64,000 nt of DNA, from assembly GCA_030762175.1 (NCBI GenBank), contig CM060831.1:28717001-28781000 (forward strand), in the 5' to 3' direction. Both the position numbers and the translations under genes were made by a program. Under the pieces are notes generated by a model that worked only from the letters and a program-made list of their open reading frames with translations, was not told the origin of the DNA and did no database searches. Below are positions 19,668 to 43,800 of this stretch, one piece after another. The stretch comes from Metallyticus violacea (Eukaryota > Arthropoda > Insecta > Mantodea > Metallyticidae). Positions within the stretch are counted from its first letter, which is position 1. The number at the start of each line of letters is the position of its first letter.

Positions 19668-20713
19668 TATTTTAAGTATGAAAAATATCCTCCTGCATAT
19701 GACATTCATCTTGTTATTTTAAATTTCATGATTTATATTGCACACAGTCAACCATTAAATTAGTATGTACATTAAATAATTAGTAATAAATTTTAATTTC
19801 TTAAAAGTGGCCATTGACAGTATATACAATATATTACATGTACAAAATAACAGATTTTCTTATTGTATCACAGCTGTAATATATAATTGGGGCCTACGCT
19901 ATTCATATTAATTCTACAAACACCATATGATGGAATGCAATGGGAAAGTAAATGCACTATCCAGTCAACAGTTTTCAAATTATCTGCACGACTAGAAAAA
20001 AGTGGCATTAACGATATGTATAACATTCGTTGAGACCAGTGTAAGGTCATAAGCCAGCAATTCTAAGGGAAACAAACCCCATAAAGTACATAAATTTCAT
20101 TAAGATTTATATAATTGAATAATATTAATGATTTTACAGTAACCAAAAGCTTATCACTGAAAAGTACACATTATAAAATGCTATCTAAAACTCTTACAGA
20201 AAGGTATCAAAACACTTATTAATATCTTTTTCCTTCAATACTGATAAAATAATTAACAATTTATGAATATCATTGTTATTGCATTACAGTGTGGCAGGTA
20301 TTTTGAACACACTCTTTTGATATAGGATTACTGTTTTTCCCAGTGACATCTAACAGGTCCATCATTATTGTTCAGAAAGAATTATGTTTCTTGAATGTTT
20401 CAGAAGTTGATTTCAAATGACACAATTGCCATTTTGAGGCTTATTCTATAGTTTTCCCTTGTCACTAAATAGTGAAACGATGTTAGCTTATCTGCTTCTA
20501 ATTAAATCATTACTCTGAAGAGATATGGCAATTATCAGCAGTATATGATTAAAGTTTAAAAACAGTGGTAAATATAACCAGAATGATGTGCTGTAAAATT
20601 AGTCTATTAAATCAAATAAGTGTACTTACGAAGCTGTTGACAATGGAGTGGTATATATATAAACAATGTATACAGTTTTTTTCACACTAACTCCATTCAC
20701 TTACATAAATTTG

Positions 20714-20750
20714 GAACATATGTTTCGGGAGCGATCCCTCCCATCTTCAG
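20714..20750 (-). ncRNA. Hammerhead ribozyme-like motif, left arm
   Basis: Exact reverse complement of the right-arm motif at 20774-20810, so the minus-strand transcript carries the same core: CUGAAGA, stem II GGGAG/CUCCC, GAAA, and the self-complementary ACAUAUGU stem III followed by U. Confidence 0.65.
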
Positions 20751-40800: not shown

Positions 40801-43800
40801 GAGGACACTAGCTCCATTCTTGCCCAAATCACAGATCTGGAGGGAACCCCTCTCTTGAGAATCCAGAAGGAGGATATGTCCCCATCTCAATCCAAAATCA
40901 AATATATAATTATTCTAATATGTAATTTAAATAGATTGTAAAAATAAATCCTACATAATAAATCTACATATCTACCCACAATCTTAAATTGGTAATTGAG
41001 TTGCTTAATCTATACAATCCCATTTCACCTTAACATCTTCGTTACTGGTGCTTAAGGATTATCTGCAATACTTAATTTGTTATTGATTGTAATATTGTAT
41101 CAGCTACTCTATCCCTTTTCCTACTATTCATATTTTTCTCATCCATTTTTTCTTAATCTTCATAAATATTTTGCCTTCTTTTTAATATCTTCTACTCTTG
41201 TCCTAGTTAATATTCCTTTTATTACTATTTCTGGTGGTAAATTATCCCAGCTTTTCTCCTATATTTCTTCTCCCCAAAATATAACTTTTGTACAGTTTCA
41301 TTAGTACTTACCAATGCACTTACAACAACAGCTACTGTCTTGTCAGGATGAGCTAACACATCAACACCAAGACCTTTGGCAAACTCATGATACTGGAGAG
41401 AGTTCATTGCAATGAATGCCATAGTTTTGTTAGTACGGCATGCTAATCCTGTGAAGCTTCTTGGTGCACGGCGATTACTTGCTGCATATGGAAAAGCTGG
41501 AGGATGAATAAGCTTTGCACGATGTAGACGTCTGCATTTTTCTTGTTCAAAGGCCTCTGCAAGTGCTTCAGCTGATTTGTCATCGCCCTTCCCAGTCAAC
41601 AATGATGTTTCCACAATGAACCGAAGATGACTGTTAAGAAATAATCACATTTTCATCACAAAATGTTCATAAACATTTAATATGAGGGCTGTTCTATAAA
41701 GAATGATCAAAATTTTTACAGACATAATTTCTCGTGCTAAAATTTTACTTTACAATATTTTGTTAACTTAATGGTAATGTACACATGGTACTAGTTTCAT
41801 TGTTGTCACTTCCAGTTTGAGCCTCTGACAGGTGTGCAAGTTGATACATATATAAATGAGTCAGTATTAGGTGACACTAAAACTTCACTGTTCCTAACTT
41901 CTTTTATGATTACAAGTTGATACATGTTCAGTTCCACCTACAGCAGAATGGGAATGACTATGACAAACAATATACTGCTGTGAAATTCTACTTTCATTTC
42001 AACAAATCTTCAGCAATGTTTCAGGTGGCCTGTGGAGAGTTGTTCTTTCCTATAACACAGCTTGAAGATGATTTATAATGTTTAAAATGGGGAGGTAATT
42101 AATTTCAAAGGAAGGTGGGCTGATGTTTCATTTTGTGCTCTAATAGAAGAAAATGTAAACATGCTGCTGTCATTGTCAGAGACGATCATCGAACAATAAG
42201 AACATTAATTAATGGATATCATTGTATGATTAGTTGAACTACACACTCTTAAAGCTTCACTTACTTTTCATAAATGTATGGAACCGGTTTCGAGAACATT
42301 TTGTTCCCATCTTCAGCCATGCTAAGGTTCAACTCAGTGAGGTAAGGTTCAGTGAGTTGAACCTTAGCATGGCTGAAGATGGGAACAAAATGTTCTCGAA
42401 ACCAGTTCCATACATTTATGAAAAGTAAGTGAAGCTTTAAGAGTGTGTAGTTCAACTAATCATACAATGATATCCATTAATATGATTGGCTTCACTGTGT
42501 TAAGTTCCAATTTTACATTTAAGTAATAAATAGGCCTTCAAGCCGTAGGAACAACGACCCGCATTGAGTTGAACCTTAGCATGGCTGAAGATGGGAACAA
42601 AATGTTCTCGAAACCGGTTCCATACATTTATGAAAAGTAAGTGAAGCTTTAAGAGTGTGTAGTTCAACTAATCATACAATGATATCCATTAATATGATTG
42701 GCTTCACTGTGTTAAGTTCCAATTTTACATTTAAATAAGAACATTTTTAGAAATTCTGAAAATATCACTGGGTACCCACAGATTGGTTACTGAAAAGTTG
42801 CACATGAGAGTGTTTGTGCATGGTGGGTTCCAAGATTGCTGATTCCCAAACAAAAGAAAGATGATGTTACAGGCAGATGCAAAGTTTCTTTTAAAGGTAA
42901 TCACTGCTGATGAAACTTGGATACATTATTTTGATCCTGAGAGCAAACAGTTAAGCTCTGTGTGAAAATATCATCACCAACAAATGCAAAAGTAGTTTCT
43001 TCTGCTGGAAGTATTTATTGTTGAGAACCAGCTCTTAAAGAAAAAGTTTTATGACAAGCATAAGCATACATTTCATAGACATTTTCCAGAGTCTACACCA
43101 TCATCAAAGTAATATAATTAAAAAAGCTCTTTTATATATGTGAGCTAGGATTGAAGTGCATGCAAAGTGACTGAAGACATGTTTAGTGATAAAGAGTAAT
43201 TGGCAAACTATGGACAGATTGCTCTCAATACATGCAATTTTTATCTTTAGAGAAATGCACAGGGACATTCCACAAGTATTGAGGCTATAGAAATTTATAT
43301 TTAAACAGTGAAACAATAGAAGTTAAGGTGCAATGAGTGCTATCAAACCTTCTTCAGATTTGTCAGGTGTGCTTGAACAAAATGGGCATCTCTTTTGGCA
43401 TTTACTAGTAAACGAAAGTGAAATAGAATATTAATTCATTTTCAATATTGCCTGAATATTCATGAATTATTATCTAAACAGCTAATTTAATTTATTTATT
43501 CCTGTACATACATTCTCCTTGAGAGAAAATGAAATAAGTAAGGGAGACAGTTGTTGCATTCACTATAAAGTCTTTCCTTTCTACCCTTGCTACCCTTGAA
43601 ATGCATGTAAAATTTTGGCTTCTTCAAAAACTGCAATTAATTTCAGAATGCTAGGTGATGTAAATTGTAAATTCTATCTAATCTGTCGTCTAACACAAAT
43701 ATGACTTTTTTTAAAAATTTCATATTTTTCAATAGTTCTTAAATGTATTAGGTGATGTTGTTACACTAATCAGAATCTTTTCATTCATTCATTAAAACCT

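Follow-up and report, generated by a model that had tools for sequence, protein, structure and literature searches.

A stretch of 64,000 nucleotides from Metallyticus violacea (assembly GCA_030762175.1, contig CM060831.1, positions 28,717,001 to 28,781,000; hereafter the window, whose numbering is used below) contains four short foldbacks without an open reading frame (ORF), which we call E1 (20598-20877), E2 (23735-23964), E3 (39363-39632), and E4 (42195-42745). Our analysis indicates that such foldbacks are probably by-products of Penelope-like elements (PLEs), formed when two nicks 12 bases apart provide two 3' ends that both prime reverse transcription toward the 5' end of the PLE mRNA. 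As far as sequence can tell, the features that carry this reading are a sharp 12-base target-site duplication (TSD), biased flanks, empty relatives of one site, a single tail per resolved insertion, and arms that appear as antisense copies reading inward and whose inner ends cluster.

Four foldbacks bounded by 12-base repeats

As an earlier note on this DNA had claimed, E1 to E4 are each bounded by an exact 12-base direct repeat (4/4), and the bases just outside each repeat mismatch on both sides. In window positions 1-52000, a 12-mer match at the element's own offset occurred once in about 51,500 starts for each of the four, this being the element itself; when offsets within 30 bases were allowed, the rate was 3e-7 to 9e-5. 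The arms are complementary over 99 nt in E1 (100%), 99 nt in E3 (96%), and 133 nt in E4 (98%), and those of E2 are shorter and interrupted. E4 consists of three arms, one inverted and two direct, and is not a simple two-arm foldback.

20598-20609, no strand: E1 left TSD, ATTAGTCTATTA
20610-20656, minus: E1 tail at the left outer end, not in the other arm, homologous to the E2 tail
20657-20755, minus: E1 inverted arm, a pseudo-long terminal repeat (pLTR), with hammerhead-like core at 20715-20750
20769-20865, plus: E1 direct pLTR arm without tail, hammerhead-like core at 20774-20809
20866-20877, no strand: E1 right TSD
23735-23746, no strand: E2 left TSD, ATAATTCATTTT
23747-23819, minus: E2 inverted arm without tail, with truncated hammerhead remnant
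23840-23891, plus: E2 direct arm, internally shortened
23892-23952, plus: E2 tail at the right outer end, matching the E1 tail
23953-23964, no strand: E2 right TSD
39363-39374, no strand: E3 left TSD, CCTTCCCAACCT
39375-39413, minus: E3 tail at the left outer end
39414-39512, minus: E3 inverted pLTR arm, core reading CTGACAA
39522-39620, plus: E3 direct pLTR arm without tail, hammerhead-like core at 39524-39557
39621-39632, no strand: E3 right TSD
42195-42206, no strand: E4 left TSD, AATAAGAACATT, within a dispersed-repeat copy
42208-42340, minus: E4 inverted pLTR arm without tail, hammerhead-like core at 42282-42316
42349-42522, plus: E4 first direct pLTR arm with tail (42482-42522), hammerhead-like core at 42373-42407
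42562-42733, plus: E4 second direct pLTR arm with tail, hammerhead-like core at 42585-42619
42734-42745, no strand: E4 right TSD

The outer ends are asymmetric. The tail lies on the left in E1 (47 nt) and E3 (39 nt) and on the right in E2 (61 nt) and E4 (41 nt), and the opposite end is shorter by 39-61 nt. With inverted pLTRs and a PLE tail at one outer end only, E1 to E4 look like ORF-less PLE insertions. The ends had also been said to match nearby PLEs or each other, and both kinds of match were found: the E4 arms match the pLTR beside an endonuclease frame at 25846-26223, and E3 has a counterpart in a second foldback (26398-26767). The endonuclease frame belongs to a fragment that we call PLE-A (25652-26398), which is likewise bounded by a 12-base repeat, the fifth in the window.

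Duplication length and target site across the genome

We searched the genome (2.32 Gb, 310 contigs) with arm-plus-tail queries for three pLTR families, F4 (E4 type), F3 (E3 type), and F1 (E1 type). The first look gave 1692 F4, 1852 F3, and 119 F1 candidates, of which the best 40 in each family were scored. Outside the window we read all 39 of the 39 listed near-full-length F4 matches, 20 of the 39 listed for F3, and 12 of the 39 listed for F1; seven F3 and six F1 loci were picked for a listed partner arm, and no locus was picked by its repeat. Scoring favored the candidates that resemble the window copies most closely, so that the sample is one of young copies, and the sampled loci are a small part of all candidates. 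Both ends were in hand for 17 F4 foldbacks (16 of them independent, since L073 and L074 represent a single duplicated site), 11 F3, and 7 F1. The fetched piece held no second end at 22 F4, 9 F3, and 5 F1 loci, among them L093, which has no inverted arm but shows a 12-base repeat by eye.

Among the 34 independent foldbacks the maximal exact repeat was 12 bases in 18, 13 in 6, 14 in 5, 15 in 2, and 16 in 1. The remaining two were L115, with 11 exact bases, and L092, with an exact repeat of 7 that reads by eye as 12 with one mismatch. When left and right flanks were exchanged between loci within families F4 and F3, a repeat of at least 11 arose in 1 of 380 combinations. Maximal repeats overshoot the true length where adjoining bases agree by chance. 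For the 25 exact F4 and F3 cases, a fixed length of 12 predicts 13.1, 7.2, 3.0, 1.1, and 0.4 repeats of 12 to 16 bases, and 15, 4, 4, 1, and 1 were observed. The log-likelihood of these cases (without L074, L092, and L115) was -30.4 for a fixed 12, -32.3 for a spread with a standard deviation of 0.5, and -37.7 for one of 1. A fixed 12 with chance extension therefore fits the repeat lengths best, and added spread lowers the likelihood.

Arm-based pairing was used for this tabulation since an unsupervised scan for inverted repeats with TSDs performed poorly and its null was noisy. That scan, which we dropped, missed small-loop foldbacks and found a repeat of at least 8 bases in 11 of 32 inverted repeats; its shifted null gave 8 of 167, including one of 11 and one of 13. 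PLE arms look clustered in the genome, with 69 matches in about 190 kb around hammerhead-motif loci (L001-L028) and in the window (E 1e-5). Evenly chosen sites (L039-L058) held 2 PLE arm matches in 60 kb (E 1e-4), and this random 60 kb, in which part of L053 is N, was a poor source of copies.

A bias in the flanks was first noticed on the window and on loci read earlier, before the targeted loci were fetched. Twenty-one loci with a 12-base repeat were compared: E1 to E4, PLE-A, and 16 targeted loci of F4 and F3, L092 among them. The flank on the no-tail side ends in AAY in 16 and the flank on the tail side begins with RTT in 15. In nine other registers the count was 0-4 of the 21, and the background is about 5.5%. 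The 16 targeted loci alone, fetched after the motif had been noticed, gave AAY in 13 and RTT in 12. Since the two sides are reverse complements, they suggest a palindromic target, AAY-N12-RTT. At the F4 loci without a second end, RTT occurred 11-15 bases past the tail end in 18 of 21, with 9, 5, and 3 in the next 5-base bins (L104 excluded).

Relatives of one insertion site were found without the insertion. When the E4 flanks were joined with one copy of the 12-mer, the sequence matched 38 other loci across the junction. Six of these were aligned singly; they run continuously through the junction at about 80% identity, each showing a single diverged version of the 12-mer and lacking 12 extra bases, with a 3-base indel just left of the 12-mer or at its edge in five. 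We take the dispersed repeat that hosts E4 to be mariner-like, from a reading of its coding, and presumably the frame at 48360-48881 is a mariner-like transposase fragment, E4 appearing to sit in another such relic. A Pfam search of the 48360-48881 frame at E up to 10 returned only a sub-threshold unrelated match and does not support mariner.

The earlier note took the fixed TSD length as a sign of a defined integration step. Such a step is likely, given the sharp 12 in three pLTR families and the diverged empty relatives of E4 without the duplication. Neither of the outcomes that it had named as refuting emerged: tabulation of the loci read, a small part of the candidates, revealed no broad spread of TSD lengths in young copies, and within the sample the repeats did not turn out to be chance matches that empty sites fail to restore.

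Tails, inner ends, and hammerhead-like cores

In a sample of arm pairs not chosen by tail, the tail was on the right only in 11 rows and on the left only in 9; no row had both or neither, and five gave no call. The 20 called rows represent 18 elements (E4 and L025 are counted twice), each with exactly one tail, and the same holds for 15 of 15 elements after leaving out E1, E3, and E4, which supplied the tail definition of the query library. The targeted loci, for which one tail was needed by design, comprised 33 rows with exactly one tail and 4 without a call.

The one-sided tail led us to set aside two other models. Inverted arms and a near-constant duplication length would also fit miniature inverted-repeat transposable elements (MITEs), i.e., DNA transposons making a 12-base duplication. 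MITEs have terminal inverted repeats at both extremities; the extremities of the foldbacks are instead not mutual inverted copies, as the tail is present on one end only, and in F4 the arms are pLTRs belonging to an element that contains a GIY-YIG frame. A MITE origin is thus hardly conceivable. In a self-priming model, a single cDNA folds back at its 3' end and copies itself, as proposed for head-to-head PLE repeats of Adineta vaga in part of the published account (PMC3846280), and several inner junctions indeed contain short palindromes. However, copying back would repeat the tail, and perhaps the flank, on the second arm, whereas each of the 18 resolved elements has a single tail, and inner end points can differ between the two arms. 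We consider self-priming quite improbable.

Toward the inside of the foldbacks, the arm ends cluster close to an initiator-like CAKT that lies immediately before the hammerhead motif. In F4, measured against one long F4 copy with short spurious matches dropped by eye and L074 duplicating L073, the tail arm starts at -18 or -19 from the ribozyme core in 15 of 18 rows (the others being L080 at -16, L086 at -40, and L092 at -88), and the no-tail arm starts at -17 to -19 in 10 of 18. F4 arms begin at the A in C-AGTTGAACC; several F3 starts, placed by eye because the script did not find the F3 core, lie around C-ATTGGG. The F4, F1, and F3 starts resemble what we take to be the arthropod initiator, TCAKTY. 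Run-off of reverse transcription at a capped mRNA end would explain why the foldbacks are short, ORF-less, and contain an uncut ribozyme; a strong stop of reverse transcription at the inner end would look identical. By eye, 10 of 14 direct arms of F4 have a G in front of the RNA start (L080 omitted and L086, L092, and L095 not among them). This G might come from the cap; it is not clear in the no-tail arms, and we do not rely on it.

Inner junctions and arm lengths vary between the copies read, and by eye no inner junction recurred at different target sites among 13 F4 and 11 F3 junctions, with many candidates unread. L073 and L074 share an inner junction at one duplicated site, and only L073 was among the junctions compared. 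They are one of at least three pairs of equal-score matches about 52.7 Mb apart on contig C13; in this pair, the one that was read, the flanks are identical. The pairs suggest a very large duplication or a second haplotype retained in the assembly.

The earlier note further described hammerhead cores in three foldbacks and a remnant in the fourth. The motif CTGANGA..GAAAC is borne out, with two copies in E1, one intact copy in E3, three in E4, and only a truncated remnant in E2, and it is on this motif that the assignment of the cores is based. The order within a core is CUGANGA, an extra U, stem II, GAAAC, and a short, largely palindromic stem III. An extra base at this position is known from a viroid hammerhead. 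The cores are like minimal PLE hammerheads, a type I form located in the pLTR, and may represent a putative ribozyme; Lunse et al. are said to have found that minimal PLE hammerheads cleave as dimers. Rfam searches returned no hammerhead, either in the whole window at gathering scores or in 20300-43000 at E up to 10; what they did return were hairpin families, microRNAs among them, and other weak matches. When one monomer was folded, the lowest-energy structure kept stem II and not the rest of the hammerhead. Further hammerhead-like cores lie outside the four foldbacks at 16886, 23298, and 34447, the one at 23298 just right of an imperfect inverted repeat near 23150-23270.

Source elements and a proposed double-primed integration model

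The direct and inverted pLTRs, the TSD, and the tail at one pLTR, which in endonuclease-containing PLEs measures about 30-40 bp, are all features of the PLE layout, and it is by this shared layout alone that we would assign F1 and F3 to PLEs. For F4, coding sequence is at hand. At locus L013, a frame that matches PF01541 GIY-YIG at 25.9 bits (cut-off 22.6) continues into a tail-less F4 pLTR. L062 has a pair of frames upstream of an F4 pLTR with tail; the second matches GIY-YIG at 18.3 bits, under the cut-off, and neither matches the reverse transcriptase (RT) model RVT_1. Among 17 homologues of the second L062 frame, three contain PF00078 (RT), PF26215, and PF01541 together. The endonuclease fragment of PLE-A has three protein matches, the named one from the cockroach Diploptera punctata with 54% identity over 68% of the query, and this homologue has PF01541 GIY-YIG above cut-off; Pfam found no domain in five window frames that included the PLE-A endonuclease frame. 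The F4 parent thus appears to be an endonuclease-containing PLE with RT and GIY-YIG endonuclease. PLE-A and its neighbor are arranged as follows.

25652-25663, no strand: PLE-A left TSD, ATATCTGAATTA
25664-26386, plus: PLE-A, with inverted pLTR (25664-25746), endonuclease frame (25846-26223), and direct pLTR with tail from about 26218
26387-26398, no strand: PLE-A right TSD, which is also the left repeat of the next foldback
26399-26765, minus: E3-like foldback on the 12-base site of PLE-A, right repeat at 26766-26777 with 2 mismatches

For the E3-like foldback the script found an exact repeat of 7, and the 12 with mismatches was read by eye. Two different PLE-type insertions thus have one 12-base site in common (26387-26777), as if the second had struck the duplicated copy made by the first. 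Elsewhere in the window, an uninterrupted (ACT)n array of about 8.7 kb (52303-61080), real or an assembly artefact, ends beside a few N, and dispersed repeats that we take to be perhaps short interspersed nuclear elements (SINEs) occur at 1621, 14606, 47512, and 51165, two of them with a tRNA-like GGTTCGAATCC box.

The ribozyme-like cores retained in the arms and the large number of candidate arm copies could be taken as signs of a self-propagating, retrozyme- or SINE-like family that is transcribed, ribozyme-processed, and inserted by PLE enzymes. Such a family is improbable, as inner junctions and arm lengths differ among the copies read, the F4 pLTR also follows an endonuclease frame, and the arms of a foldback transcript would be expected to pair and mask the ribozymes. 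The differing inner junctions, the position of an F4 pLTR after an endonuclease frame, and outer ends that correspond to the PLE tail and no-tail ends make the foldbacks look like independent, repeated by-products of PLE retrotransposition. The earlier note had proposed a separate non-autonomous inverted-arm family with a fixed TSD; a length sharply centred on 12 is borne out in young copies, and the separate family is not supported, given the differing junctions and the F4 pLTR that follows the endonuclease frame in L013.

The by-product reading can be put as a sequence of steps. The source would be a PLE with RT and GIY-YIG endonuclease, two subunits of which, acting as a dimer, would nick both strands just before RTT at a palindromic AAY-N12-RTT and leave 12-base 3' overhangs. 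Both target 3' ends would then prime reverse transcription on sense PLE RNA, one primer starting at an outer site and producing the tail, the other starting about 40-60 nt further in and producing none. Both cDNAs would often reach the mRNA 5' end at the initiator-like CAKT, upstream of the hammerhead motif, and would be joined head to head; completion of the second strand would yield the 12-base duplication.

If both arms are primed from target 3' ends, a direct duplication can be expected only from 3' overhangs, and the other polarity would need filling-in first. A variant of the paired-nick model is therefore that 12-base 5' overhangs are filled in beforehand, or that the second end is attached by repair and not by priming. 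Polarity is not given by sequence alone, and a palindromic site fits either. Nevertheless, primed synthesis predicts an antisense copy that starts reproducibly, and the no-tail arm, too, has this form; direct priming from 5'-overhang ends would presumably lose the 12 bases. We regard the variant as rather unlikely.

Several observations weigh against priming from both nicks at a fixed 12-base stagger. In L115 the 11 exact bases lie directly between AAAC and GTTT, so that the stagger may not be absolute. In a sample that included older copies (loci chosen by hammerhead motif, their neighbors, random loci, and the window), 12 of 25 arm-pair rows had a repeat shorter than 12 or none, two of these being inner arms of triple-arm elements, and 13 had a repeat of at least 12, five of those in the window. 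Eight further loci with exactly 12 bases, not all oriented by tail, had AAY on the left in 6 of 8 but RTT on the right in only 2 of 8, and nine F3 loci with one end in hand gave no clear RTT peak. The empty relatives of E4 are diverged repeat copies and not allelic empty sites. No-tail F4 arms are less often at the initiator-like position than tail arms, and by eye 6 of the 14 F1 arm ends begin at the A in C-AGTTTGTC. Finally, in the relevant part of the Adineta vaga study, PLE TSDs measure 8, 9, and 10 bp and are absent in two described cases (PMC3846280); 12 is accordingly not general among PLEs, and the earlier note was fair in calling PLE TSDs generally variable.

The layout itself is of a known PLE kind. 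As far as that portion of the study goes, Pen2a of Adineta vaga likewise has inverted and direct pLTRs, TSDs, an optional tail on one inverted pLTR, which the one-sided tail seen here matches, palindromes at inverted junctions, and unrelated sequence captured between solo pLTRs; in contrast to the Adineta vaga PLEs, a sharp 12 in three families, a palindromic flank bias, and recurrent ORF-less foldbacks are found here (PMC3846280). The Poseidon PAc protein of Anolis carolinensis, in what its main text reports, cleaves and extends both strands, prefers the cleavage motif 5'-ATT, and uses unprocessed RNA as the dominant template, the tail being the stretch between two internal RT start sites (PMC11167929). 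Our model shares with it the cutting and extension of both strands, the internal starts that define the tail, and the unprocessed template. Unlike here, that main text describes no fixed stagger or paired product and does not contain the word duplication, and the study leaves second-strand synthesis and later steps unvalidated (PMC11167929).

Metazoan retrozymes are, like the foldbacks, small, devoid of coding sequence, and equipped with hammerhead motifs, and a curation guide notes that they may rely on PLEs (PMC8969392). They consist, in the portion of their description that we draw on, of direct tandem repeats of 150-450 bp with classical type I hammerheads (PMC7229834). The foldbacks, in contrast, have inverted arms and minimal motifs, only E4 having two direct arms, and do not belong to the retrozymes so defined; expression as circular RNA is a further retrozyme trait. 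Another parallel is twin priming of LINE-1. There, two staggered nicks and two primers give rise to an inversion and a TSD, occasionally and with variable TSD length; the nicks, primers, inversion, and TSD are alike, whereas here all 34 both-ended foldbacks fit the paired layout with a near-constant 12.

In a literature search by titles and abstract openings, with key PLE papers outside its reach, we recognised neither a fixed 12-base TSD nor a palindromic target for PLEs. As far as this literature shows, the near-constant stagger of 12, the palindromic site, and the one tail per insertion are new, and together they support a model of double-primed integration. With less confidence, we lean toward the broader view that PLE integration is an asymmetric double-primed reaction, with a GIY-YIG dimer nicking twice at a 12-base stagger in a palindromic AAY-N12-RTT, two internal RT starts each serving one primer, and run-off at the transcription start by cDNAs of the mRNA 5' region. 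If this is true, a single mechanism would account for the inverted pLTRs, for the tail on one side, and for TSD and solo foldbacks alike, with the hammerhead uncleaved. A near-constant stagger, a palindromic target, one tail, and clustered inner ends offer a testable model for the odd layouts of PLEs. Young foldbacks would document across the genome where the two nicks and the two RT starts lie, and perhaps the position of the RNA 5' end. They also bear on the need for hammerhead cleavage, because the ribozyme region is uncut in arms extending as far as the inner end.

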